DNA from: Leucosporidium creatinivorum
Lineage: Eukaryota; Basidiomycota; Microbotryomycetes; Leucosporidiales; Leucosporidiaceae
NCBI GenBank assembly: GCA_001600635.1
Contig: BCKL01000045.1
Location: 1-64,000, forward strand
Direction: 5' to 3'
Length of the DNA: 64,000 bases
Shown: positions 20,969 to 39,085 of the stretch, one piece after another
Layout of the letters: every line of letters starts with the position of its first letter
Numbering within the stretch: position 1 is the stretch's first letter
Program-made: the position numbers and the translations under genes
The notes under the pieces: generated by a model
What the model saw: the letters and a program-made list of their open reading frames with translations, nothing else
Told to the model about the DNA's origin: nothing
Database searches by the model: none

Positions 20969-21579
20969 TTCGAGTCGAGGTGAAGAGGCGGTGATTTGCG
21001 AGAGGGAGAGATGTGGAAGAGGCCCCGCGCGGCGTTCTGAAGGCTTGAGCTTAGACTACATCTCGCTCGACTTCTTTACTCCGCTCCAACTCGAAGAGTG
21101 CTTCTCTACTGGACTACAGCTCGCCCTACTCAGCCTGCACCCTTCTCGATGTTCTTACAACCGCTCGACGCGTCTCGAGCGGAGCTGGAATTGGAACGAG
21201 CCGACTTGAGCGCCTCGTAGGGAGTCTGAGCAAGGTGAGTAGCTCTCTTGATCTACTGAAGAGTATATCCTTCGCCCTGCTGGCTCGAAAGCGGTCTTGG
21301 AAGCTGATCTCGGCGTTCGTCGGGCTGCAGAGTAGTGAGGCTCTGTAGCCCGCCGAGAGGCTCTCACCGTTCTCGAATGGAGACCCAATCAACTTTCCAA
21401 GGCTTCAGAAGCTCCCGCTGACCCACTCTCTCTTCCCCACTCTTGCAGTTTCTCTCAACTCGACGAACCGGACGTGGGAGGAGCGCCGAGCTGCTCTCCT
21501 TCGCAGGGAAGCTCGACTCGACCATCTTGACCAGCATCGAAGCCCTCGACTAGGATCATTGAATTCCCAACCTCCACCT

Positions 21580-22436
21580 CTACTCGTCACCCCTTGCCCT
21601 CGGCCAAAAGACCCCTCCCGCCTGCTCAGCTCGGTCGAGCGCCAACTGCTGTCGCGAGCGGGCCGAGGTGTGATGAGCGCCGAGGCTGTGCGCCTGAAGA
21701 GGAGATCAAAGGTTCAGCTCGTCCTCGAGAGAAAGACTGAAGTGCAGAAGAGAATGCACCCCCTCATGGCCACTGCTTTCGGCCTGTCCTGCGACGTGAG
21801 CCGACTCAACCCGACGGCGAGTCATGCGCTTCCGAGCATATCCAGTAAGTTTGTTGATGGTGTTCAGGGCCTTCCAGTGGTGGTAAGGTCAAAGGTCAGC
21901 TTCTTCTTGCCTTGCTCTGGCTCCAGATAATGCTCGACTAGCCTCGGGCTCGTCGCGCAGAGCTTGAGTGAGCCTGCGAGTGATCTCCATGGCTGACAAC
22001 ACCCCCGCTTCAGGGATAAAGCTGAAACGAATGGCGAGCTCATAGCGATTGGCGTCGTAGAGCTTCCTCGAGGCTCGTCAGCATGCACGTCGAGCTCCGG
22101 GGCGATGGTCTAAGGACTCACATTGGCGAGGGCGCGACCCTTCATATGCACATTCTCATAGCGCTTCAACTCTTTCTTCACCTCAACTTGGTGCCCTGCG
22201 ACCCACCCCGCATTGATGTTCGCCGAGTGAACGAGCAGCATGGCCAATACCTTCTCACTGATCTCGGCAGCCAGACTCTGCGAGTCCGTCTCTTTCTGGT
22301 GTTTGGCTTTTGGTATGATGAGGTTTTTCTCAATCTCGGGAGGGTTGGAGAGCCACAGGTCGTGGAGGATGTCGAGCACCGCGTCGAGGATGTTTCGGTG
22401 GTGCTCGAGCGAGGCGAGAGTAGGTGCGGGGGCCAT
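21580..22436 (-). CDS. Four-copy family protein, copy C
   Basis: Member of an unrecognised family with four copies in this window. Exon 1 (22436-22122) codes MAPAPTLASLEHHRNIL...DLWLSNPPEI...ETDS...LKRYENVHMKGRALAN. Exon 2 begins LYDANRYELAIRFSFIP and ends near LTQALRDE; its donor is not a normal GT site, unlike the other copies, so splicing here may be altered. Exon 3 (ALNTINKLTGYARKRM) and exon 4 (QLALDRAEQAGGVFWPR then ARGDE stop at 21580) follow. About 220 aa, soluble, mostly helical, no signal peptide or catalytic motif. The start was chosen because the paralogs share the same MAP(A/S) start and the box upstream. Confidence 0.75.
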
Positions 22437-22536
22437 CAAGAGGGAGGGTTGCAGAAAAAACAAAGAGCAAGAGAAGAAAGGGAAAGAGGAAAGGAGAGGG
22501 CGAGAGGAGTGACCAAGGAAAGCGAGGGTGGAGGCC

Positions 22537-22577
22537 CGTCGCCGAACCCCGGGGAAGCCAGACCGAGGCGATGAAAC
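22537..22577 (-). promoter_or_regulatory. Conserved box upstream of family copy C
   Basis: On the minus strand the segment reads TTTCATCGCCTCGGTCTGGC, a short spacer, then GTTCGGCGACGGG. The same two-part block lies upstream of copies A and B, 80-101 bp before their start codons, while the surrounding 5' sequence has diverged and the reading frame through it is not conserved. A promoter or 5'-UTR element is inferred. Confidence 0.6.
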
Positions 22578-22820
22578 GTGAGGCTCTGCTGCATGCGCCA
22601 AGGCACAGGCGCAGGGACGAGGGAAAGCAGGGAAAGTAAAGAACCAGAGGCAATGTCCATGTCGAGACGTGACCAGCAGAAAGCGTGAGATCGGCGCTCG
22701 GACTTGGCCCGATGAGCGCCGAGCCGTTCTCGCCCTCTCTTTGGTTAAGCAGCATATTTGTTAGTTCAACTGCAGCGGAACACATTCTGTCGCCTCCGCT
22801 TAGCATCCCAACCTCCACCT

Positions 22821-23727
22821 CTACGCATCACCCCTCGCCCTCGGCCAAAAGATCCCTCCCGCCCGCTCGGCTCGGTCGAGCGCAAGCTGCCTCCTCGTTT
22901 GCGTCGAGGTTTGATGAGCGCCGAGGCTGTGCTCTACCTAGCGTCACAGAGAAGTCAGATTAGCTAAGACCCTGCAAGACGAGCAGACTGAGAGGAAGAA
23001 CTTGGCTCACCTGGCTGCCCGTCAAAGCATGATGCTGGGCGCCTCGAGCCGGAGACTGAGTCCTCTTCTTGAACTGCCTAGGCTCTCGTCCTGGCACAAT
23101 ACTAACGAGCCTCTGTAAGCGTGCAGATGCGGGATGCGAGAGTTCAGCGTCGCGAGCAGAGGGCGAGCGTTCGAACTCGACGCCGAACTCACCTCCTCGT
23201 ACAGAGCCAGGTAGATGCGCCGAGTGACTTCTAGCTTCCCTAGAAGTCACTCGCAGGACGGGGAGGTCTTCGTCGACGGGGATGTTGAACCTCGCTGTAA
23301 GCTGCTGGGCGTTGGCTCTGTAGAGCTGTGCGAAAGACAGGGTCAGCGCAGCGCTGCGCTGAACGCCGAGGTCAAGCCCGATAGCAAGAAGGAGGCAGCT
23401 CACCAACAGAAGCGGTCTCTCAGGTGCAAATACGTTGTTGTACGCTCGCAACGCCGCCGTCGCGTCCTTCTTCTGGCTGACAATCCAACTCTCCGAAGCA
23501 GCCTGCCCGTCAGTGACTGTCTCCAAAAGCGCCTGCACGCTTTTGTAGAGTTTACGAGCAACAAGCTCCGAGGGAACGGAGGTCTTCTCCCGGTGTACTA
23601 GAGCTTCTGGGTCCATGTCTGGGTGAGGGTTGAGCCAGAGAAGATCGAGGATGCTGAGAACGCCGAGCAGGTGGCGCCGGCCTTGACGCAGGGTTGCGGA
23701 GGTGACTAGCACCGGTGTTGAGACCAT
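22821..23727 (-). CDS. Four-copy family protein, copy D (divergent, possibly inactive)
   Basis: The most divergent copy. Exon 1 (start 23727) codes MVSTPVLVTSATLRQG...SILDLLWLNPHPDM...AYNNVFAPERPLLL, aligned with the SLEH...DDLWLSNP...RYENVHLKG pattern of its paralogs. Exon 2 begins LYRANAQQLTARFNIP; inside it a 14-bp perfect hairpin (23221-23253) shifts the frame before the expected LEVTRRIYLALYEE. Exon 3 (RLVSIVPGREPRQF) and exon 4 (QLALDRAERAGGIFWPR then ARGDA stop) are recognisable. The frame break suggests a pseudogene unless a splice variant skips it. The upstream box of the other copies is only weakly present. Confidence 0.6.
23221..23253. repeat. Perfect 14-bp hairpin inside family copy D
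   Basis: CGAGTGACTTCTAG, a 5-nt loop CTTCC, then CTAGAAGTCACTCG. The right half is the expected coding sequence (LEVT on the minus strand), so the left half looks like a templated inverted copy made by replication strand switching. Confidence 0.9.
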
Positions 23728-24357
23728 TGCGTGATGAGTAATGGAAGAAAGAGAGATCCAAGCAGGAAAATGGGCTGCAGAAGGAGCAGACAAGCTCAGG
23801 AGCGCCCCTCGGAAACGAACACTGAAGGATCGCCGAACTGCACTGCCGTGGCTCGGAGCTGCCGTAGGGCTGAGGAAACAAGACTTGCAGCTATGCTGCA
23901 GCTCAAAGGTATAGAGGCTTCCAGATGTTGCTGAAGAGGAGAGGAGCTGCAGAAGTGACTGGGACAGGGCAAAGAGCGAGCGCCGAGCAAAGTCCACGCT
24001 TCGGCCTGCAGTCGGACTTTCGGTCAGCTGCGACGTCAGCTACGAATAGTCTCCCCTATGAATGTTTCTTCTGTGACGGCTGGTGCTCCGTCTATGTTTA
24101 TGACATCTACTGAAGGAGGATAGGGAGGACGTTCACGCCCCGACATTTTGGCCCCGTGCAGACTTGGGGTACTAGTGGAGTCGGGACGAGGTCAAATCAT
24201 GTCTGTGGTACTACTGCAAACTGTCCGCTCACTAGACTCTTGATAAGTAATATCGGCGACCGGCACTTCGGCGATCCGCTCGGCCGGCTCCTTCTCCACC
24301 TGCTCGACTTCCTCTCTCGCTCTCTCCCCAGAGCACTTCGTATCGTTTCCCGACAAC

Positions 24358-25651
24358 ATGTCTACCGATAATTGGACTCGACCTATTAATCTCGCTAAGC
24401 GCCCAGTCGCCATCATCGGCGGCGGGTTTCAGGGGAGGCGAATTGCCTACATGTGGGCGACGCAAGGACGTCCTGTGATTGTGTTTGACACCGTTGAAGG
24501 GTCTTTGAAGCAGACAGCCGACTACTTGGCTGAATGCAGGGAGATGAACTCGGTGAGTCGAGCTTTGGCGAGAGAGCCGAAGCCGAGCTGAGAGCTTACC
24601 ATCTCGCTTCTCTCTCTCAGAATCTGGGCCCCCTTACGACCACGTCTGATCTCGCCACCGCCGTCAAGGATGCTTGGCTTGTTCTGGAGGCGGTCTCCGA
24701 GGTGCTGAATCTCAAGGGCGAGGTTTTCAGCCGGCTAGAGCAGCTCACGAAGCCCGACGCCGTGCTCGCGACCAACTCGTCCTCGTACCGCTCCTCAGAG
24801 ATCGCTGGGCACACCAAAGTGCTTCATCGAGGTGAGCTTTGTCTTGAGAGTGTGTCGAGATTCCCCTACTGACCGCATGCCCTCTTCTAGTCTGCAACAT
24901 CCACTACTTTCGCCCGCCCGAGATGTAAGCGCTTCAGCGGAACCTCAAGCATGCAGCTCGAACTGATTCTGAGCTCATACCCAGCATCGCATGCGAGGTC
25001 ATGACCTCGGGCAAGACAAGCGTGACGCTTCTCGATGTGGTTGTCGAGCAACTCGAGCTTCACGGTCACCAGCCTTTCCGGGTTCGAGCCGAGTCGACCG
25101 GTTTCATCCAGAATCGGATCTGGGCTGGTGAGTTATGTAGGGGGGTATGTCACGGTGTATCTTCTCGGGCGCTGGCTGCCTTGCTCTGCTGCAGCCATCA
25201 AGCGCGAAGCTCTCCAGGTCGTCGCCGAGGGAATTGCCGAGCCAATAGACGTGGAAGCCCTCTTCCGCGCTCGGTTCAAGACGCCCCAGGGACCCTTTGA
25301 GATTATGGATGGAGTCGGACTAGATGTTGTGGTACGTCTCTTTCTCCATGCTTAGCCGTTCAGACCAGCATTGACGCCTCTTCCCTCGCTTTCCCTTCAG
25401 CTCGACATCGGTAGGTCGCCTAGGGGTTTCACTTGATTCCGCACGCTGACCGGCCCTCCTCTCGACCAGAACACCACTACGCAAAGGAGCGAGTCGGCCT
25501 ACCTCAATCGCCTCGAGACCTGCTGCAGCTGTACCGCGAGGCTGGTGAGCTCGGCACGAAGACTGGCTCGGGCTTCTATGATTGGACAACAGGCAAGCCT
25601 CAACCATTACCAGTCAAAAAGCTTGCAGTAATGCTTGACCCAGGTCTGTAA
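24358..25651 (+). CDS. 3-hydroxyacyl-CoA dehydrogenase family protein
   Basis: NAD-dependent oxidation of a 3-hydroxyacyl (or similar 3-hydroxy acid) substrate. Exons 24358-24552, 24621-24831, 24891-24924, 24985-25127, 25195-25331, 25401-25410, 25470-25651 sum to 912 nt (303 aa), a usual single-domain length. The N-terminal Rossmann fold shows VAIIGGGFQGRRIAYMWATQG (first ~20 residues of the motif, near residue 17) with Asp after the second strand. NSSSYRSSEIA and IHYFRPPEI correspond to the family's NTS and H-F-F-N-P-P blocks; the catalytic His is in the latter. The C-terminal helical domain has GFIQNRIWAA and ends TGSGFYDW. Exon 6 is a 10-nt microexon. No clear C-terminal peroxisomal SKL signal. 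Whether it acts in fatty-acid oxidation or on another hydroxy acid cannot be told. Confidence 0.9.
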
Positions 25652-25901
25652 TCGAGTACCGTCTTCCCAGCGATTCAGCCGATAACCCTCGGCGAGAAAT
25701 CATTCCTCCGTTCTGCCGACTTGGGTCTGCCGCTTCTCGAGCCTCGTCTTTTTTTGACCTTACGGCGGCGTCCACTGCCGCTTCGGGGACTTGTCGCCTT
25801 ACGTAGAGAGAGGCTCGGGCACTTGTCGGCGATTTCTCCCCCACTCAAAAGAGGCGCCTCCCAGGCTTTCCATCCTTTCTCTTCCCTTCATCTCGCTTCA
25901 C

Positions 25902-27892
25902 ATGCTCTCCCAGCGCCTTCAAAACACCTCTTGCTCACTCTCCAAGTCCAACACACTACTTCGCTCCATCTCCACCTTTGCACCCTCGCTCGCGCGCGCC
26001 ATGCCGGAAAAGCAGAAGAAGGAGGGAACAATCGCCTCTGTATTCGCCTCTCTCTCGAACACTAGCGAGAGTGCTCTTCCCTCCCGCTTCCGCGACCTCA
26101 AGCGCGACATGGTCGGATCCGAGCTGCACGGCGACTCGATGCTCCGAGCCTGGCGTCAAGTGCTCAAGGACCTGCAGCCCGAAATCAACAGCATCGTATC
26201 GAAGGGACCCGAGGTCATCCCGACTGTGCAGTACCCCGACGAGGCGACCGCGAGGAGGCCCCTCAGCGAGTGGATGAGCGCCGAAACCCTCGCCGAGATT
26301 CGTCGACGAGGAGTGGTGAGGATCAAGGGTGTCGTCTCCAAAGACCAAGCTCTCGAGTGGAAGGAAAGTGTCAAGAGCTACGTCAAGGCCAACCCCCAAG
26401 TTCGAGGTGAGTTCAGAGAACGCCGGAGCTCGAAGTTCGCAGGGTCGGCGCGAGCTGTCCTCGAGTCCTGGTCGGCGCCTGCTGCTCCGCTACACTGTGA
26501 TCAGACGCTGATCGCGTACCTCAATAATCTACAGGCTTCCCGGAAGATGACAAGCAAGTGTTCGAGCTGTACTGGTCCAAAGCTCAAGTCGCCGCCCGAG
26601 GTAAGCTTTCGGCTCTCTGCCCTCCCTCTTCCCTACGCTGACCACCCCCTCCATTCACCCACAAAGCCCACCTCAATCTTCTAAATGTGCAACGTACCTT
26701 CCTCAACGGCCTCTTCCGAGCTCCCCACCTCGAGTCCATCGACCCCTCCTCGACCGAGCGCGCCATTTCCCTTTCCAACGTCGTCTCCTACGCCGATCGC
26801 CTTCGCATCCGTCATCCAGGAGACTCAAAGTTCGCTCTTGGACCCCACATTGACGGCGGAGGAGTGGAGCGCTGGTGAGTGGTCCGAGTCGCCGGTCTCG
26901 GAGATGGAAGCGCTAGCGGAGCTCGCTGACTCGGTTCCCTCCGTTCAACAGGGAGGATCCCGAGTTCCGCTCGTACTGGAGGTCAATCTTGGAGGGTACG
27001 TGCGACTGGCGAGAGCACGACGCTTGGTCATTCGGACGAGATGGACAGAAGCTCGTTGCCAAGGGCGACCTTTGCGAAGCGCCGGGAGGGGTGAGCCGAC
27101 TTCGACATTGCTCCTCAACAGTCGAGCAGAAGCTGAACGAACCTGCTACAGTGCTCCGTATTCCGACCCTTCCAAGGATGGCTCTCGATGAGCGAGACGG
27201 GCCCGAACGAGGGCACTCTCCGAGTCCTCCCCCTCCTCAAGGAAGCGACCGCCTACATCGTTCTTCGCCCCTTCTTCCGTCCTCTTATCGCCGCCAGCCA
27301 ACTCCCCGACGGCACCTACCCTCCCGAGTATCTCCACGCCGACAACTGGGTCGTAAGCCCTCTCTTTCCAATCGCCGCCCCATCTTCGGCGCTCGCTGAC
27401 CCTTCCGTCTAGCTCGACACCGACACCTCCTCCTTCCCCGGCTGTTCCCTTGGCCACTCGCTCGAGCTCTCCCCTCTCACCCATCCCCATCTCTCCCTCC
27501 CCACGGCCATGACCTCCATCCCCCAAGTCTCGCCCGGCGACATGGTCCTTTGGCACGACTCGATCGTCCACGCCGTTGAAGCCCATCATCAGGGAAAGGG
27601 CGATAGCTCCGTCATGTACATCCCTGCCATCCCTTTGACGCAGAACAATTTCAACTATTTACTGCAGCAGAGGAAGGCTTTCCTCGCCGGCCGGGTGCCC
27701 TCGGACTTTCCTGGAGGCGAGGGGGAGGCGAGATTCGTAGGTCGGGCTACTGAGAAGGATGTGGGGAGTGTGGAGGCAAGGAGGGCGATGGGTTTGGAGG
27801 AGTTTGAGGTGAGGGAGGGGATGACGGAGGCGGAGAGAAAGTTGATTGAGGAGTGTAATGCGAGGTTGGCGGAGCTCGGGGCCGAGGCGTGA
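25902..27892 (+). CDS. DUF1479 (YbiU-like) putative dioxygenase
   Basis: Exons 25902-26406, 26535-26600, 26667-26874, 26952-27090, 27152-27352 and 27413-27892 sum to 1,599 nt (532 aa). The first ~35 residues (MLSQRLQNTSCSL...LRSISTFAPSLARAM) are basic and Ser-rich without acids, consistent with mitochondrial import. Conserved DUF1479 blocks follow: RRRGVVRIKGVV, GPHIDGGGVERWEDPEF, FRPFQGWLSMSE, GTLRVLPLLKEATAY, GDMVLWHDSIVHAVE. The H-x-D and distal His fit an Fe(II)/2-oxoglutarate dioxygenase fold, which is the expected structural class; the substrate is unknown. An upstream in-frame start at 25791 exists but would extend into non-conserved sequence. Confidence 0.88.
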
Positions 27893-28376
27893 GCTGGGCT
27901 TCGGCGCTGAAGCTTAGTAGATAGCATCTCGTTTGTACCTTATCTGTGTACCTTCTCAACTTTGTCATCTAGGTCAGTGGAAAATGGAAGGCGAAGCTGC
28001 AGCGATCCAGCGCCGGCGAAATGGCTCAGGAGACAGCGCCGAACTCGCCCTCTCCTCGCTTCTTCCCTCCTCTCATCTCACCGCGGACTCCGAGAAGGAT
28101 CAAAAAGAAAGCAAGATTGCACAGCGTAGCGTATCGAGAGAACTGAACTCAAAGGGGGAAGACGAGAGAAGCGAGTCGGGGGTGTAGAGGAGAACGAGAG
28201 GCGAGGGGCGGGTTTTAGGGGAGGGGAGGGGGAGGGGGAACGAGTCGAGGCAAGGGGAGACGAAACGAGGTCGATATAAACGGAGAGAAAGGAAGGGGAG
28301 TTACTGATGGGGTTATGAGAGCCGGAAGCGGAGGAAGGGATTTTAGAAGAGGGCCCTGTTCGCGGTCGAGTGTGCG
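27893..28376. other. Convergent intergenic spacer, no gene recognised
   Basis: The spacer lies between the stop of the DUF1479 gene and the stop of the minus-strand VAP gene. The right half is purine-rich on the + strand. It probably holds both 3' ends. Confidence 0.5.
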
Positions 28377-30026
28377 TCAGCTATCGTAGCTCGCTAGCGC
28401 AGGAGAACGAGGGAGAAGAATAACCCACCAAGTCACCACAAACACGGCCACCGCGATTCCAACAACAATCTGTACCGGCACCCCATCGCTTCCCTTCTCC
28501 ATAACCACCGCCTGCGCCGTCCCCGGCACCGCTCCTCCACTGCTAACCGGCGTCTTCTCACTCACACCACGACTCCTCAGTCCCGCGGCGGTCGATTCCG
28601 AGGCAGCGAGCTGCTTGCGAAGCGAGGCGATCTCCAACCGAGCGGCGGCGAGTTCGGTGCGGAGGGAAGAGTCGTCGGTGGGGAACTCCTTGCTGACCGC
28701 CGCGGAGGCGGAGGGAGGGACCTCAGCACCACTCTTCTCTGCCACTGCGCTGGCTACTCCAGTGAGCCCAACCGCCGCGGCAGCTCCAGCGATCGCTCCT
28801 CCCGCCGCGACGGCAGCTTGAGAAAGGCCGGATTGGGCTTGGTCGAGGAGAGGGGAGGTGGAGGAGTGGGCTGGGGAGGGGGAGTCGGGCGCTTTGTCTG
28901 CGCCGGCGGAGGGGGAAGAAGAGGAAGGAGGAGTGCCGAGGGTCGAAGCGAAGGATTGGTCGGCGAGGTTGGAGACGGAGTTACCATTGGTGGGAGTGCC
29001 GGAGGAGGAGGTGGAACGGACGGTGTTGAAGTTGGAGGAGGGGGTGGACTGTAGTGTCGTAGAGCAGAGAGGAGAGTCAGCGATCCCGCTCGACTAGCGA
29101 GCGAGGAGCTCCACACGGCGCGTCTCAGAGGCTTTAGCAGAGAGCAACAGGCAACTCACCTCCTCTTCGTGAATCGTTCCATTGGCTCCATTGGTTCCAT
29201 CCTCGGCAGCAGGCAAGTACGCGCACCGGATCTTCTGCTCGTGAATCAACGACGGCTTGTCGGACGAGGCTTTATCCTCCTTCTCCACGGCGGCCCACTA
29301 TTCGCGCGTCCACCATCATCAGCGTCTGCAGGTAGCGAGAGGAGGAAGGAATGAGACGAGAGACGAACCAGCTCGGCCAAGGAGGACGACTCGCGGTCCA
29401 GGGTCACGACGACGGATTGGACGAGGAACTTGTCGCGGCATTTAGCGCCGGGGGCGGGGTCCTCCTTCATCGGTTGGAGGAGCACTGTAGTATGGTAGCA
29501 TTGGCGGAAAGGTGGAGACGAGAGGGAGAGGGCCCGGGCGAGAGCGATATCGGTCAGCATTGGAAATGACGAAAGGTGCTTGGGTGGAGGAGGCTTCGGA
29601 GGGAGAACGGGACAGGGATCCGATGTGCTACATGCAGTAGAGCTAATCCAGCTTCCTCCCGTCACCTCTGTGCAGCTGTACATGGCCCTCCGCTTCAAGA
29701 GCGCTGGCAGCGCGTCGCCTGTCCTCCCACTTGTTCTGTAAGTGAGCAAAGACTGACCCTGCACCTCGACCGTCTCTCCCGGTTCGATCCTCCCCGAATT
29801 AGGCCTGACGCAGTACTGTTTCGGCGCAGTTGTCTTGACCTTGTAGACGATGGGTTGCGAGTTGTGGTTGGAGACGCTCAGCGTTCGCTTGACCAGCTGG
29901 GTGAGAGGGCCTGTTCGAGATGTATAGAAAGGGGTTAGCTGGGCTACAAGGGTACAGAGTAAGAGAGAGAGCGGTGAACGTACGCTGGAAGGCGAGCTGA
30001 GAGGAAGGGGAGAGGGTAACGCTCAT
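28377..30026 (-). CDS. SCS2: VAMP-associated protein (VAP/Scs2-like), ER membrane tether
   Basis: Exons 30026-29984, 29910-29758, 29485-29370, 29297-29160 and 29048-28377 sum to 1,122 nt (373 aa). Residues 1-125 are an MSP domain: LTQLVKRTLSVSNHNSQPIVYKVKTT, APKQYCVRPNSG, IEPGETVEV, LLQPMKED and CRDKFLVQS match the VAP signature that binds FFAT motifs. A Ser/Ala-rich linker, a heptad-like helix (LRTELAAARLEIASLRKQLAAS) and one C-terminal membrane span (IVVGIAVAVFVVTWWVILL) follow, as expected of a tail-anchored ER protein that recruits lipid-transfer proteins to contact sites. All splice phases close. Confidence 0.92.
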
Positions 30027-30674
30027 AGTGACTGAGCGAGGGCTGGCGCTGAGAGTGACGGCGGGGCTGAGTAGGGTACAGTGAGAGGAAGCTGTAGAAC
30101 GGTAGGGCTAGCTGGCTGAGAGACGAGACGAGACGAGCGAGGATGAGGTAGGAGCGAAAGAGACTTGGGAAGCTCAGCCTCTCGACTTGGCCCCGTCAGA
30201 GCGAGAGCGAGACACCCGGCTTCCTGTAGGGGACCAGAGCGGTCTCTCGGAGTGCTACAAGACTGTAGCCGATCAAAGCTAGATTACTACAGTCGATTCT
30301 AATTATCGCCGAGCCTCTTCTATCGAGCTACAGCTCGTTCTCAACTGATTTCTTGGCCGCTTCTGCAACACACTGAGGTCTCTTGAAGCTTCTACTCGCT
30401 TCGCTTCCAGCATGCTCAATCGACTGCTCTGCAACTTTGCTCACTTACGGCTAGCCCGCAGCTCTCGGACTGACCTGTTCTCGGCGCTCGGCGAAGGCTT
30501 GACCCCTTCTTTCTGCTTCTCTCTGGAGGCCGCGGCTCGCAGATTACGCCGTAGCAGGTTCTAAGTACTCTGCTACACCAATCACTCCTCCCCCTCACTC
30601 ATTCACCACTTCGGCCCACAGAGCGGTGCAGGGCCGCCCCTTGCTTTCCTGCTTCTTCGTCCTGCTCGCCTGTG

Positions 30675-33291
30675 ATGCCACCAGATCAACCTCCAAAGCA
30701 CAAGAAGCTGCCCGCATGCGATAGATGCAAAGTAGGTCCTGCTGCTCTGCTCCCAGGCGATCCTGTAGCTGACGCGGCGATTCCTGTTGCTCGCCTATAG
30801 GCGAAACGCGTCGTTTGCTATCCTCAGCTGCTGGGAGGGAGCTGTCCGCGATGTGTGGAGGGTGGGATTGAGTGAGTCTCTGCTCTTGCTGCTGGTGCTG
30901 TAGGGCAAGCCCGAGCCGAGGCAATGAAAGGCGAGGGCGACGGGCGCTGGCGACTTATCGGACTCGCCGAGCTGTCATGAAGCAGACAAAAGCAATCGCT
31001 GACCAGCTCTCAAACATCTGCTGAACAGATGTACCACCACGCCCGTCACTCGACGACCGCGCGGCTCTGTCCCGCTCGAAGAGAAGCAACCTCGCCGACA
31101 GCAGAAACGCTCCCCTTCGGTTCACTTGCAGAACAACCCTTCAGGCAGCAATACACCACTAGGTTCATCTCCCTTGGATGTGGCCACCTCGGCTGCTGCA
31201 CACGCTACTGCCGTAGCTCCAATGCAGGACCTCTCGCCCGACCTCGTTCAGCACCTCCTCGACGGTTCGTCCAGCTCTGCCGCTGGCTCGTTCGCTGAGA
31301 GCTAACAGCCTCAACACACAGTCTTCGACCACCTCCCCCTGCGAGCGCACCCCGGCCTGCCTCTCTCCTCCCTCCGCTCCTCGCTCCACTCCCTTAATTA
31401 TCGGACCTCGCTCCTCCCTCTCCCCTCCCGAGCTTTCGCCTACGCAATATGCGCCTGCTCCGCTTTGATCGCTATGCATCCTTCGATCCTCGGACCGGGC
31501 TACCTCCCGAGTTGGGAGGAGCTAGACCGAGGCGTCGTCGATTGGAGAGAGTTCGGTCGACGGAGGGAAGGAGCTTGCAGGGCTTTGAGGGAGGAGGCGT
31601 TTAGGTTGGCGAGGGAGGCGGATGTAGTCGCCGAGTGGACGGATGCGACGAATGCGGCTTGCTGCTTTTTATTAGACTACCTCGATAACGGTGAGTCAAT
31701 CCTCACCGCGCCGACAGTCATCGCCGAAGCTTACTCTCCCGCGTTACAGGTCGACCCTGCACCGGCAAGATCTCGAGACCTTATGCTGTTGCACTTCTGG
31801 CTCATGCTCGAACGCTGGCAGAGGTGTCGGAAGAGCCCTCTTTCGCTCACGGCATGGGCTGGTCCGCTTTCTTGGTGAGTTCGGCTCGCGGCGTTCTCCA
31901 AACACACTCCAACTCCCCTCTGCCCACCCAAAAGGCTACACAAGCTCTCAACTCCATCTCCCTCGGCTTGCCTATCATCTTGTTCGTCCCGGCTCTCGTT
32001 CTCCTCCACCGCCGAGCTCAGGCTGACCTTCCTCGCTCGTTCAGCACCCCGGGCGACCAACGCACACTCTACGGCGCCAATCTCCTCACTCTCGACCAGA
32101 TGACGATTAAGCTGAGGGATGCAAGCACGACACATGATCTGCAGGTCGTGCTGCAGTGTGTGAGGCCTTGTGAGTCGTTTCGTTGATCTCTCGGCGCTCG
32201 GCGCTTTGAATTGACATCGCCTCGTGAGGTCTCGCAGACACCTCGCAGGTCATCGACCTAGCACGCCAAATTGACGAGAACGTGACTGGTGGTGTGTTCT
32301 CTCTCTCTCTCTCTCCCTCTCGTGCGAGCCCCGAAAGGCTTCGGCTGACCCTCGTCCCACGAACAGCCTACCCTCGCCGTCGGCCCCTCTCCTCCCAACA
32401 CCTCCTCAGCACCCTCACCTCCCTCAAATCCCTCGACGTAGTCCACTCCCTCCTCCTTGAACGGCTCTCCATCCTCCACCCTACGCCTACCCCGTTCCTC
32501 TTTCCCTCCCCGTCTCGCCCATCAAGCCGAGGTCCAGGAGATCCCCTCTTCCTCCAATCCGTCATGCAGGCGGTCAAACTCGTCACCAGCACATGCTACA
32601 CGACTCTCGTGCTCGCCCTATACCAAGAAGTGCAGCGGCGCGCTCTCGACGACGGAGAAGGAGTCGGGCTCGGGGCGGAGAAGGAGAGGCAAAGGCTGAG
32701 TGGGTTGAGGAGAGAGGTGCAGGCGTTGGCGAGGGACGCGGCGAGGGAGTTTGCAGAGGGGTGTGGGGATTGGCCCGGGTGGGGTTATGGGATGTACTTT
32801 TGTGATGGTGGGGGGAGTGGGAGGAGGTTGGAGGGGTGGGCGCGGGTTTTGCTGCTGGAGGGTGAGGAGGGCGAGGGGGAGGGAGGGGAGAAGGAGGGAG
32901 AGACGAGAAGGGCGCTGAGCACGTGAGTCGAGGTTGTGGCTCTGATTCGAGGGGGACGAGCGCTGGAACCGAGGAGCTGACGCCCAACCCGAGCAGCATC
33001 CTCAACGTGCTCAAGCTCTCGCAATTCTCCTGCAATGACCCTTCCATCGACTCCGCCATCGTATCCATTGGGTCTCATCTCCAAGACCTTCCAGCACCAC
33101 ACGGCCACCTCCTCAACGCCGGCGCGCCTGCACCTTATCTCGAACCCCCAGGCCACTCCCTCGGCCTCCACGATCCTCAACTGAATCTCATGCTGACAGA
33201 GGATATCAATCTTGGTGGATGGTCCCCCATGTCGTCTCTTGGCGGTGTGAGCTTGCCTACGGTGGAAGGAGGGCAGCCTTGGGGATATTAG
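30675..33291 (+). CDS. Zn(II)2Cys6 fungal transcription factor
   Basis: Exons 30675-30731, 30801-30871, 31029-31264, 31322-31690, 31750-31874, 31935-32169, 32238-32288, 32367-32922 and 32997-33291 sum to 1,995 nt (664 aa). The zinc cluster CDRCKAKRVVCYPQLLGGSCPRCVEGGIEC spans exons 1-3 (only its spacing matters: C-x2-C-x6-C-x9-C-x2-C-x6-C) and begins at residue 15. A basic linker and Ser-rich stretch precede DLVQHLLDVFDHLP, a typical start of the 'fungal-specific transcription factor' middle region, followed by helical sequence with SALIAMHPSIL and AHARTLAEVSEE. It is nuclear by class. Target genes are unknown. It is divergent from the VAP gene with about 650 bp between the starts. Confidence 0.93.
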
Positions 33292-33689
33292 AGCGGCTCG
33301 GCGATGGAGTGAGGGGTCCGGTCGAGAGGAGTCGGATTTTGCTCGGCTTTTGAAGCGTGGTAGATAAGCTCGCTATGTCTGTATGAATGTACCATTGAGC
33401 ATGCTTTCGACTGGATAGAAGTGAAAGGCCTGGGTCCCGCTGAGCAAACCCGGCTGTAAATGAGCTGGCTTCGAGGCCTTTTGTGTAAGGGAGGGTGAGG
33501 ATGCGGCTCGCTGCTCTGCTTCTCCCAACACCTTGCTCCTCTTAATCGTTACCTCGCCTACCGACTTAATCGACTCGACTGTACCTTGATAGTCCCCTCC
33601 AAGGACTCGTCTCGCTCTTCCTCTCAGCTCTCCCCGCCTCTCTCTCTCTCCCCTTCTCTTTCGCGCGCTCAGCTTGCTCGTTAGCAGCC

Positions 33690-35777
33690 ATGGGACAAAC
33701 CCTCTCGGAACCCGTCTGCGAGAAGCATACAGCTTTCGCAGAGGATGATCGGTAGGTCCTCCTCCTCTCTGCTAGGCTACAGCTCTTCAGCAGCAGCAGC
33801 GAGGCAGATTGCGCCCACCCGCAACGCACGAGACTGACCTTAGGCTTCTCCTCTTCTCTTCCGACGTATAGACTCGCATGGGGTGTATCAGAGATGCAAG
33901 GATGGCGTTTGAGTGAGTCTCTCCCCTTCTTCCTGCTGTCCTACAGCTCCTCCGTCTCCTCAAACGGCGGGGACAGCGACAGCACCTGCCACCGCAAAGC
34001 TGACGCGTTATCGCCCTTTGCCTTGCCTTTGCAGCCATGGAGGATGCTCACGCTCATGAGCTCTCGTTGGGAGAGGAAATCAACGGAAAGAAGACTTCCT
34101 TCTTTGCCGTCTACGATGGTCATGGAGGTAGGTCGGCTCAAGGCTTGAAAGGGAGGGAGGAGCAGTCGGGCTTCATGCTGGGCCTGCTCCGCTTTCCGTA
34201 CATCTCGCTCAGCATGCTCACAACCCTCCCTCTACGCGTATAGGATCCACCGTCGCCCGCTTCGCAGGAGATACCGTCCACTCGCGACTCGCCGCCAACG
34301 ACGCTTTCAAGAGGCGTGATTTCGAGGCGGCGCTCAAGCGCGCCTTCTTGGAGACGGATGAGGATCTTCGTGCCAGTGCGTTTCAGGTTCTACTGCTGCG
34401 TGGATCGGGTCCGGCGGAGGCGCGGGCAGGGAGGAGGATGAGCAAGCGAGGAGGGATCGCCGATGCGTTGCTGAAGGGAGGGAGCAGAGCAGGGAGCAGA
34501 GGGAGGGAGATGACACAGCAGGAAGAGTAGGACTGACTCTGTTCGACTTCACGCAGACCCCGACTTCCGTGGCGACCCTTCGGGATGTACCGCCGTCTCG
34601 GCCATCTTCACCGAAGACCTCAAGATCATCTGCGTGCGTTCGACGCTCTCCCTGTACTGCCTGCGGCTTCACACACGCTGATCCCGCTCGTCCGTCTCAT
34701 ACAGGCCAACGCTGGAGATTCTCGAGCCGTCATGTCCCTCGGAGGAGAGGCCAAGCCACTGTCGTTCGACCACAAGCCTACCAATAAGAGCGAGACGAGC
34801 CGCATCGTCGCCGCTGGTGGATTCGTCGAGTTTGGTCGTGTCAACGGTGGGTCTCCCATCGCCTTCTCGACTTTTCGCCGAATCGACTTCGGTCGAGGGT
34901 CGAGCGAGACCGAGCTCTTCGCTGACCTCCTGCGCTTGCACACAGGCAACCTCGCACTATCGCGCGCCCTCGGAGACTTTGAGTTCAAGCAGAGCACAAC
35001 CCTCGAGCCCGAGCACCAGATCGTCACCGCCGACCCCGACATCACCATCCACGAGCACACGAGCGAGGATGAGTTCCTTGTCATCGCTTGCGATGGTGCG
35101 TTGCGATTTCGCTGGCTACTGAGATGTATAGAGTAGGATTGCAGCTGACTCTCGTTCTACTCGCTACCCCTCGCCGCTTTCGCCACCATTCAGGAATCTG
35201 GGACGTCCTCACCTCGCAACAAGTCATCGACTTCGTGCGCCGCTCCATCGCCCTCGGCAAGCCCCTGCACACCATCTCGGAAGACCTGATGGACCGCTGC
35301 CTCGCTCCCGATTCCGATTGGGGAGGAGTAGGATGCGACAACATGACGGCCATGATTATCGCCATCAAGGATCAGAGGACCACCGCAGAGTGGTACGAGT
35401 GGGTCAAGGGGCGTGTAGAGGGTGGTGTGGGGTACAACACCCCGACGGAGATGGTCGACCCGTTTAGCCAGGGACAGGGACCTAGGGGCGCGCTCTCGGC
35501 GCCGGGTGGAGGAAGGGGCGCGGGAGGACCACCAGGGAGCCTTTCGATGGCGCTCGGTGGTGGAGGGGAGGAAGAGGAGGATGACCAGGATGATGATGGC
35601 GAGGAGTTGGACCTGCCGGCGATTCAGAAGGCGTTGCAGGCGAGGATGGCCGAGCTGGCCAGGGAGGAGGGGATCGAGGAGGGTAGTGCGGTCGGCGTCT
35701 TGGCTGAGGGGAGTAAAGAGGGTGCGGAGGAGGCGGGCAAGCTGAAGACGAGTATGAGCCCGCCGACGACTATCTAG
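33690..35777 (+). CDS. PP2C-type Ser/Thr protein phosphatase (Ptc2/Ptc3-like)
   Basis: Exons 33690-33751, 33872-33912, 34035-34127, 34244-34375, 34557-34633, 34705-34846, 34946-35095 and 35194-35777 sum to 1,281 nt (426 aa). It starts MGQTLSEPV, the layout of Ptc2/3 (Gly2 could be myristoylated). PP2C motifs in order: [27 protein letters not shown] (metal Asp), [35 protein letters not shown] and GCDNMTAMI. Metal-binding aspartates are all present. The C-terminal ~110 residues are Gly-rich then strongly acidic and end with a helical stretch. The family turns off stress MAP kinases and checkpoint kinases; that role is inferred from class. Confidence 0.94.
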
Positions 35778-36218
35778 TCGGTTCGGTCGCTCGGTCTTCT
35801 CGGTTCCCTCTCCGTTCTCGCTTCCCTTCTGTGTACCCCCTCCTCGTCCCTCCCGTTCTGTTTGACGATACCCCCCTTCAACTACCCTTCCTGCCTCTCC
35901 CATCCCTCGACCTCTCATCCACGCCCCCTTTCATCCTCCGAGCCATCCCTCGCCCGACTTCATCCCTCCTACTACCCCTCAACTACGTCGAGCCAGAGCA
36001 GAATGTACAACACACTTATGGTGAACATTTGCGCGCTTGAGAACGGAGAGACAGCGAAGAAGAGGACGCGAGCTGACTTCTTGGGCTTGGCTCGGCGATG
36101 ACTGCTCGGCCTTCTTCTCGTCGTCTTCTCGCGACGCAATAACGAAAGGGATGCTACCCTGCTTCTTATCAAATAACTCTTCCCTCTGACTAATGCAGAA
36201 GAAGGGGCGAGCATCGCG

Positions 36219-36260
36219 GTTCATCGCCTCGTCCTGGTACGCTGGGAGTTCGGCGACGGG
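36219..36260 (+). promoter_or_regulatory. Conserved box upstream of family copy A
   Basis: GTTCATCGCCTCGTCCTGG, spacer, GAGTTCGGCGACGGG; it ends 91 bp before the copy A start. Same block as upstream of copies B and C. Confidence 0.6.
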
Positions 36261-36350
36261 AGTCAAGACTCGCCCTCCTCGGACTTTGTGCAGCGAACTG
36301 ATTTCTGGACTCTGCTCTTTCACTCCGCTTCCCTGGCGACTCTCTCCTCG

Positions 36351-37238
36351 ATGGCTCCCTCGCCGTCTCTGGCAAACCTCGAGAACAACCGAAAGATTCT
36401 CAAGGCCGTGCTGACCATCCTCGACGACCTGTGGCTCTCCAATCCTCCCGATATCGAGAATATCGTCGTCCCCGCTAGTAAACCACCCAGCAGATGCTAC
36501 AGGGAGACGGACTCCCACGCCCTGGCTGCTGGGATTAAGGAGAGCATTCTCGCCTTGCTGAGTGCTCACCCGGCCGAAGTCGGTGCAGAGTGGGTTGCAC
36601 AGCATCCGGATGAGGTCAAGAAGGAGTTGAAGCGCTACGAAAATGTGCACTTGAAGGGGTGCCCACTCTCTCGAGTGAGTCCTTGGCGCGAGGGATGAGG
36701 AGTCGGCCGAAGCTCGGCGCTGACAAGACTCTACACAGCTCTACGACGCCAACCGCTTCGAGCTCGCGGCACGCTTCACGAACATACCCAAAGGTCAGGT
36801 GCTCTCAGCGCTGGAGATCACGCGTACGATCTATCGAGCCTTGCACGGCGATGTGAGTCGAGGCTGAGTCGAGCTTCCCCGTAGAGGCTGAAGCAAGAGA
36901 TTGGCGACACCTCAGACCCTGACCTTTGACATTACCACCACTACAAGATACTTCACGCTCGGACTCCAAACGGACATGCTAGGAAGCGCACTCACCGTGT
37001 GGCTCCTCTTGAGCCAGCGCACGCGGGACAGGCCGAAGGGACTCGCTCGAGTCATGAGCAGGTTTGGTTGCTCCTAGGTTGTTCAGTACGCCGATAAGAG
37101 CTAAAGCTTTGATCTCCTCTGCAGACGCACAGCCTCGGCACTCGTCACACCTCAGCCCGCTCGCAACAGCAGTTGGCGCTCGACCGAGCCGAGCAGGCGG
37201 GAGGGGTCTTTTGGCCGAGGGCGAAGGGTGACGAGTAG
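36351..37238 (+). CDS. Four-copy family protein, copy A
   Basis: Exons 36351-36674, 36739-36852, 36948-37061 and 37125-37238 sum to 666 nt (221 aa), all phase 0. Exon 1 codes MAPSPSLANLENNRKILKAV, LTILDDLWLSNPPDIE, RETDSHALAAGIKE and VKKELKRYENVHLKG. Exon 2 codes LYDANRFELAARFTNIPKG through ALEITRTIYRALHGD. Exon 3 is basic and fast-evolving. Exon 4 ends QLALDRAEQAGGVFWPR, AKGDE, stop. No signal peptide, membrane span, zinc motif or known active site. Conservation of exons 1, 2 and 4 with loss only in exon 3 argues for a real protein. Family not recognised; a short helical scaffold or binding protein would fit but this is a guess. Confidence 0.8.
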
Positions 37239-37796
37239 ACGTTGAGGTTGGGCTTGCAGCCGTGCTAGGTGGTGTTTTGCCATGCAAGCCACATGCCTTT
37301 AAGCCAACCTTGCCGGCTAGGAAGAGAGTGAGAACAGCTCAGCACTCTTTCCGCCGACTCGCCGAGTCCAAGCGCCGAGCGCCGATCTCGCACTGCCCGC
37401 TGCTTGAGCTACAAGGATAGGCTTTCTCATAAGAGTGCTTTACCGGTTTCTTGTCCTCCCATCCAATGTTGAGGCCAAGAAATCGAGGCTGAGAGAGGCG
37501 AAGAGCGAGCTCGATCTCGGTCGTGTCGTTAGGGCAAAGGGGTTTGCTGTGAAGAGAAGTGAAGGGGGTCATTTCACAGCATCTATGTGTAAAGATGAAA
37601 TGAAGAGCCTACGCTGTCCCGCTGAACACCCAAGGTGCGGAAGTAGCCGCTCAAGAGCGTTCGCCGAGCACCGCTGATATCTTGCTTTCGCACCTTGCGG
37701 CCTGCGGCCGCCGGTGCTCACGATGACACTCTGGTTTGCTCTCTTTCTCCACACTTTCAGTTCTTCTCTCTCTGTGCGAGACAGCAGAGCACCGCG

Positions 37797-37836
37797 TTTC
37801 ATCGCCTCGGTCTGGCTTCCTCGGAGTTGGGCGATC
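37797..37836 (+). promoter_or_regulatory. Conserved box upstream of family copy B
   Basis: GTTTCATCGCCTCGGTCTGGC, one base trimmed from quotation limits aside, then GAGTTGGGCGAT. It ends 81 bp before the copy B start and matches the boxes of copies A and C. Confidence 0.6.
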
Positions 37837-37916
37837 GAAATCCAAACCCCTCTCCTCGCCCCCTTTCCTGCGCCGTCTTCCCTTGCTCTCTCCGTCTCTT
37901 GCGACCCTCTCTCGCG

Positions 37917-38791
37917 ATGGCTCCCGCAAGGACTTTGGCCTCCCTCGAGCACCAGCGCAAGATCCTCGAAGCGGTACGAGACATTCTTGACGATCTGTGG
38001 CTTACAAAACCACGCGAAATCAAGGACAACATCATAATACCAGCCACCCGACGTCACCGCACGATGGACTCGCGGGGCTTGGCGTCTGAAGTCAAGGAGG
38101 AGATTACCAACTTGCTGAGCGTTCACTCGGACGACATCAACCCGGGCTGGGTTGCAGCTAACCCGGAGGAGGTTGGGAAGGAGCTGAAGCGCTATGAGAA
38201 TGTGCACCTCAAGGGTCGCACCCTTGCCAGTGTGAGTCTTTGGTGACTCGACCAAAGGCTCGGCGCACGTGGCACGCGGCGCTGACGACTCTTGACACCA
38301 CTTACTTAGCTCTATGCGGCCAACCGCTATGAGCTCTCCATCCGTTTTTCCAGTATCCCCAAGGACGAGCCGTTCTCGGCTCTGGAGATCACGCGCCGTA
38401 TCAATGAAGCGCTGCACGGCGAGGTAAGTCGGCGAGTTCGGCTCGGCATGCGCCTTGCAGCAAGCAGGAGCCACTAAAGGGAGCTGACCTCTGATGTGAA
38501 AAGGCCTTGGAAGCCTTGAATGGACGTACTAGGAGGCGTCAAACTCGCCTGCTTCCTCCTAAGCCCGCTCACGAAGAAGAGGCCGATGGCAGCGATCACG
38601 AAAAGGTGCAGTTGCTCCTACCCAACATTCTTTCTGTCTCGGTATTGTATTGAGCTGATGTCTATCTGCAGCATGTTGTGCAGAGTCTCGGCATTTGTCA
38701 GACCTCGGCTCACTCGCGCAGGCAGTTGGCGCTCGACCGAGCCGAGCAGGCGGGAGGGGTCTTCTGGCCGAGGGCGAGGGGTGATGAGTAG
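37917..38791 (+). CDS. Four-copy family protein, copy B
   Basis: Exons 37917-38231, 38310-38423, 38504-38605 and 38672-38791 sum to 651 nt (216 aa), all phase 0. Exon 1 codes MAPARTLASLEHQRKILEAV, DILDDLWLTKPREIKDNII, SEVKEEITNLLSVHSDDIN and GKELKRYENVHLKGR. Exon 2 codes LYAANRYELSIRFSSIPKD and ALEITRRINEALHGE. Exon 3 is Arg/Glu-rich (NGRTRRRQTRLLPPK). Exon 4 ends QLALDRAEQAGGVFWPR, ARGDE, stop. This copy has no visible defect. It lies 680 bp downstream of copy A in the same direction. Confidence 0.8.
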
Positions 38792-39085
38792 ACTTTAAGA
38801 TTAGGATCGCAGCTGTGATCAATGATGTCTGGGTGCCAGTCAAGACGGTCGAATCCGAACCGGGCAGCTCCTTGTAACCTCTGCTCTCGACTCGGCGTTC
38901 GCTTCTGCCTCTCAGCTGGCTCGTGGTCTCGTTATCCAACAGCGAAGGGCGCTCGTAAGCGCCTTCGATGGATGTATTCCTTGTCGCTCGGTTGTACTCC
39001 AGTCTTTCCTGTATTCCCTTCGCCCAGCTTCTTCCCATGCTCGACCTTCTCGACTCGCCAGTCTCGGCCCAACCGCAAGTCTCGC

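Follow-up and report, generated by a model that had tools for sequence, protein, structure and literature searches.

A four-gene cluster in Leucosporidium creatinivorum belongs to a protein family of at least eleven genes that share a head, a linker and a tail

Fungal orphan gene families have no relative in sequence libraries, spread by local duplication, change fast and include decayed copies, and the genes reported here do likewise. They differ from such families in that eleven genes follow a fixed head-linker-tail plan, with the head doubled in two of them, and in that the tail is alike at silent sites within clusters. The wtf killer genes of Schizosaccharomyces pombe are also multi-copy and fast-changing, with decayed copies and, as is likely here, gene conversion; conversion of the non-allelic kind is a theme of the literature on them. 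The wtf proteins are multi-pass membrane proteins. The HD1/HD2 mating-type proteins of basidiomycetes have a helical N-terminus followed by a basic region, an arrangement also predicted for the present family. Unlike them, the family gives no homeodomain match (a Pfam scan of A, B and the head units found no homeodomain), and the homeodomain locus of this genome lies on contig C24, with STE3 on C25. A mating-type link was rejected on the positions of STE3 and of the homeodomain gene pair. Homeobox_KN is found at one place in the genome, on C24, and C24:375000-383000 carries a divergent, HD1/HD2-like pair of homeodomain genes.

The window, that is, the whole stretch of 64,000 nucleotides that was analysed, carries four genes, A to D, at the coordinates and with the four exons each that a sequence-only reading had claimed. 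Exon boundaries were placed by hand on the sequence, as follows.

36351 to 37238, plus strand: gene A, intact, 221 aa; exons 36351-36674, 36739-36852, 36948-37061 and 37125-37238
37917 to 38791, plus strand: gene B, intact, 216 aa; exons 37917-38231, 38310-38423, 38504-38605 and 38672-38791
21580 to 22436, minus strand: gene C; exons, 5' to 3', 22436-22122, 22062-21949, 21870-21760 and 21693-21580; intron 2 without a GT donor
22821 to 23727, minus strand: gene D, the most diverged; exons, 5' to 3', 23727-23404, 23325-23193, 23112-23011 and 22937-22821

All exons of A-D are in phase 0 and divisible by three, with the sole exception of exon 2 of D (133 nt), and each intron of A and B runs from GT to AG. 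A CTRAY-like branch motif lies within the final 50 nt of nine of the twelve introns. The likeness between the four genes is far above chance: exon 1 of B, searched against the whole genome, gives E 1.6e-35 for C and E 8.7e-29 for A, and repeats of up to 203 nt connect the copies. Exon 1 of D has 25% identity to that of B. The conserved blocks named in the earlier reading are all present in A, B and C. In D, LYRAN and the block of the last exon are kept, but exon 1 ends differently, with LRAYNNVFAPE at the position of LKRYENVHLKG/VHMKG. Two blocks 5' of the genes are also alike.

37782 to 37834, plus strand: upstream block of B, 89% identical to that of C
22539 to 22591, minus strand: upstream block of C, 89% identical to that of B

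Used as a genome-wide DNA query, the upstream block of B found no place beyond B, C and the copies on a duplicate contig. The block at 36209-36282, upstream of A, shows likeness to the blocks 5' of B and C.

The duplicate contig, C46 (60264 bases), is identical in reverse complement to bases 1-60264 of C45, the contig of the window (window 1-60264), wherever the two were compared, namely through mirrored match coordinates, four loci, and the first 9990 and last 10000 bases of C46. It is either an assembly duplicate or a true large duplication, and its copies were excluded from all counts as duplicates.

Three copies had been read as keeping phase-0 frames and one as damaged. Phase-0 exons are indeed found in A, B and C, but the damage was undercounted, with intact genes in A and B only and the following lesions in C and D.

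21943 to 21948, minus strand: lost donor of intron 2 of C, reading CCCGAG
23221 to 23253, minus strand: perfect fold-back hairpin of 33 nt (14-nt arms, 5-nt loop) in exon 2 of D, an exon of 133 nt

Intron 2 starts with GTGAGT in A, GTAAGT in B and GTGAGT in D, against CCCGAG in C. The single GT of this intron in C, at offset 10, breaks the frame if used; the four exons of C have no internal stop. In D, the hairpin shifts the frame of exon 2, and is likely a fold-back copying error or a template-switch insertion. No stop interrupts the reading frame of D between exon 2 and exon 3, intron 2 included, so the gene is perhaps only altered, not dead.

The family had been described as four-copy, but seven further genes lie on contigs C2 and C9, so that A-D make up a single cluster of a protein family that counts eleven genes or more, at three places in the genome. 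The number is a lower bound, because the genome search scores its best candidates only.

C2:290497-289396: gene E, found by exon 1 of D (E 7.5e-6)
C2:312620-311626: gene F, found by the E query
C2:281806-282882: gene G, found by the last exon of E (E 1.1e-4)
C9:307691-309623: gene H, 435 aa, found weakly by the E query (E 0.03)
C9:447777-449728: gene I, 432 aa, found by the H and G queries
C9:451897-452900: gene J, found by the H and G queries
C9:316472-315493: gene K, found by the H and G queries

With E as a genome query, F is found at E 1.2e-6 and D at E 3.5e-6, and the last exon of E reads HSLG...LGRAEQAYGV. Genome searches with the joined motifs, with exon 1 of B and with exon 2 of B returned only the window copies and their C46 duplicates, plus a match at C40:98498 (E 0.106, exon 1 of B) that was rejected as chance, there being no other family exon beside it; a match of E at C13:593158 (E 0.55) was set aside on the same grounds. 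E-K were modelled by hand from sequence alone. These models have no internal stop, and their introns are GT-AG except for one in J, where an exon ends at 452579 without GT; J may be damaged or mis-modelled.

All members can be described as head, linker and tail. The N-terminal head unit, exons 1 and 2 in A-D, spans about 130-170 residues, with an invariant Trp and, further on, the motifs LYxANR..L..RF and AL.IT..IY; in an alignment of 13 head units (exon 1 only for D), a Trp and an Ala are invariant. In H and I, the head unit stands in duplicate before a single tail. The linker, exon 3 in A-D, has a basic stretch in most members: 4-6 K/R per 8 residues in exon 3 of A-D and 3-5 K/R in E, F, G and K; J shows it only weakly, as do the final linkers of H and I. 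The linker of K (C9:315350-316800, minus strand) contains four [VILMF]KxE motifs, FKRE, IKKE, IKRE and IKRE, which we take to resemble SUMO acceptor sites. The tail is the last exon, about 37-46 residues with the pattern SLGR ... RAEQAYG..V(F/Y).P..R, and L, R, A, G and P are invariant in its alignment in all eleven genes. A maximum-likelihood tree groups the C45 members (81/86) and the C2 members (92/91); in the best tree, the C9 members are not a single group.

Intron positions differ among members. An intron within the LYxANR block is present in E-K and absent from A-D, another in the first part of the head is found in H-K, and exons 2 and 3 of K read as one. The family is thus old enough for introns to have been gained or lost, and this age makes relatives elsewhere likely, which speaks for a divergent branch of a described family that lies beyond the narrow reach of the libraries used. 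One head unit matches Mis12 at E 0.0018, a coiled-coil-type match that could be read the same way and that we took as chance likeness of helical sequence. Against such a branch, Pfam gave nothing above its curated cut-off for six whole proteins (A, B, E, G, H and K) or for any of nine head units, F being covered through its head, NCBIfam had no match for A and B, and PDB sequences yielded a best single match at E 0.1 and profile matches at 0.65, 0.32 and 0.69, none of them convincing. We consider a divergent branch somewhat unlikely. The earlier statement that the genes have no recognised relative therefore holds for Pfam, NCBIfam and PDB, but not within their own genome, where the seven further genes are found. 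A match to fused RecA repeat chains in PDB (E 0.0019) was discarded as chance, as no single stretch passes on its own. Exon 1 was modelled as helical at low confidence (pLDDT 59.6, pTM 0.37; a second structure model was poorer, at 46.9), and Foldseek gave no match to this model at E <=0.001, the best being 2.1. There were 66 pattern matches to the head among prokaryote contigs and 38 to the tail among viral contigs, with no relative in either set, and a prokaryote origin was rejected on the former. Three motif strings of the family were not found in the papers searched. The family is apparently undescribed, in the sense of being absent from Pfam, NCBIfam, PDB and the literature motif search.

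We analysed selection by Nei-Gojobori counts per exon. Exons 1 and 2 of A, B and C are under purifying selection: in pairwise comparison, omega is 0.26-0.35 in exon 1 and 0.19-0.41 in exon 2, whole-gene values are 0.31, 0.38 and 0.43, and the excess of pS over pN in exons 1-2 has p 2e-11 for A-B, 8e-7 for A-C and 2e-6 for B-C. The selection on protein proposed from the sequence is borne out by these two exons (omega 0.19-0.41), and so is the drift of exon 3, with omega of 0.38-1.02 among pairs of A-D. These values bear on the possibility that the window holds a decaying, lineage-specific duplicate cluster, in which A-D are relics, E-K the working members and the likeness of the tails a by-product of chance gene conversion. 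The missing donor of C, the shifted exon of D and the exon 3 omega, which reaches 0.86 in B-C and 1.02 in B-D, would fit such decay, but A and B are intact and omega stays at 0.19-0.41 in exons 1-2 among A, B and C; we regard decay as unlikely.

A different picture is given by the last exon. The tail block of A, used as a DNA query, finds those of the other three genes.

37170 to 37252, plus strand: tail block of A, 94% identical to C, 92% to B and 89% to D
38723 to 38805, plus strand: tail block of B, found with that of A
21566 to 21648, minus strand: tail block of C, found with that of A
22807 to 22889, minus strand: tail block of D, found with that of A

A mobile-element gene would be expected in dispersed near-identical copies, but near-identical tail DNA was found only at these four places and in the C46 copies, the other seven genes being strongly diverged. 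The strong conservation at the C-terminus had been offered as proof of selection on the protein, but silent sites are alike as well and the likeness continues 3' of the stop codon. Among the six A-D pairs, last-exon omega is 0.36-0.80 and dS 0.12-0.37, against at least 0.82 in exon 1, with no significant difference between pS and pN (p 0.07-0.78). The last-exon pS of 0.11-0.29 is lower than that of exon 1 by Fisher tests at p 0.0014 to 7e-6 in five of the six pairs, and at p 0.07 in B-C. The first 15 nt after the stop codon are the same in C and D, and in A and C the likeness takes in 27 nt of intron 3 and 14 nt 3' of the stop. Since silent sites are alike, the likeness of the A-D tails points to homogenisation or to a constraint on nucleotides, and is by itself no sign of protein selection; C-terminal likeness judged without silent sites is a misleading sign of selection.

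The low silent divergence of the tail recurs within the other clusters. In every within-cluster pair (six on C45, three on C2 and six on C9), the last exon has less silent change than exon 1; at uncorrected p<0.05, this holds for 5 pairs on C45, 2 on C2 and 4 on C9 (15 pairs compared), and at uncorrected p<0.01 for 5/6, 2/3 and 2/6, respectively. In H-K and I-K the drop in the tail is practically absent. Between clusters, the tail pS is 0.48-0.77 (ten pairs) and the motif is nonetheless kept. Together, the silent likeness within clusters and the silent difference between them, with the motif kept, suggest two layers, an old protein motif and a younger homogenisation within each cluster. Selection is better documented by exons 1-2 and by the conservation of the tail motif across the seven genes that have diverged much further.

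The tails could also be kept alike at the level of DNA or RNA, for instance by a structured 3' end, rather than by conversion or selection on protein; such a constraint would account for the conserved silent sites and for the likeness beyond the stop codon. Against shuffled sequences, the RNA of A shows better folding at z -3.86, but those of B, C and D reach only -0.55, -1.21 and -1.56, covariation is unfavourable at +0.56, with compensation in 2 of 43 pairs, and between clusters a pS of 0.48-0.77 in ten pairs goes with an unchanged protein motif. RNA structure of the last exon was rejected as weak on the fold scores and the covariation, and we hold a nucleotide constraint to be decidedly unlikely.

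Gene conversion may be the cause of the likeness of the tails, and the run test for conversion tracts was mixed. It gave p 0.05 for A-C, at the end of intron 3, p 0.002 for B-C, upstream of the gene, and p 0.0016 for B-D, at the end of exon 2; A-B, A-D and C-D were not significant, and no clean tract was found within the last exon.

Clusters with diverging heads, homogenised ends and decayed beside intact copies could also reflect an arms race, with duplication, decay and conversion of the ends as in wtf genes, in a selfish or self-recognition family such as a spore killer or an allorecognition system. However, the eleven members are old and mostly intact, there is purifying selection, and most of nine proteins inspected have no strongly hydrophobic segment, in contrast to the membrane-spanning wtf products. 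Their highest 19-residue hydropathy is 0.16-1.24 in eight and 1.65 in H, and no clear wtf-like membrane-spanning segment was seen in any of the nine. An arms race of this kind seems to us most improbable.

The reading that we tentatively put forward, giving it somewhat less than an even chance, is that of a family of soluble helical adaptors whose heads change while a single docking tail is common to all. The proteins would be soluble, because the 19-residue hydropathy peak is low (0.16-1.65 in nine proteins), intracellular, and perhaps nuclear, because the linker has a basic stretch; the head would be helical, as the weak model of exon 1 is. The fast-changing head might bind differing partners or pair with other heads, and the shared tail might dock on one common partner. 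Duplication within clusters would be the source of new heads, and the tail would stay alike through homogenisation of the last exon inside each cluster. We counted against this adaptor reading that two of the four window copies are damaged or altered, that the structure models are weak and the run test for conversion mixed, that the silent drop in the tail is practically absent in H-K and I-K, and that J and the final linkers of H and I show little of the basic stretch. A bolder form of it, which we find highly doubtful, is a modular recognition family of constant tail and changing head: active homogenisation of the last exon per cluster would keep every member docking on one common partner, duplicated or doubled heads would become diverse, and self-recognition or drive would be possible roles. 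Should the family be new, it provides a head-linker-tail plan and two profiles with which fungal proteomes can be searched, as well as a natural test of whether concerted evolution can affect a terminal exon and leave out the remaining gene.

Between the C/D and A/B pairs (six frames, 24001-36002) lie genes for a 3-hydroxyacyl-CoA dehydrogenase, a Gig2-like protein, an MSP-domain protein and PP2C. These neighbours have ordinary domains and, within 24001-36002, give no hint of a common task. C45 seems, by eye, to start with a tRNA-like sequence. The 9-mer TCGGCGCTC occurs at 22 places in the window, genic and intergenic (for example 21675-21683 and 22691-22699), against 1.79 expected from shuffles.
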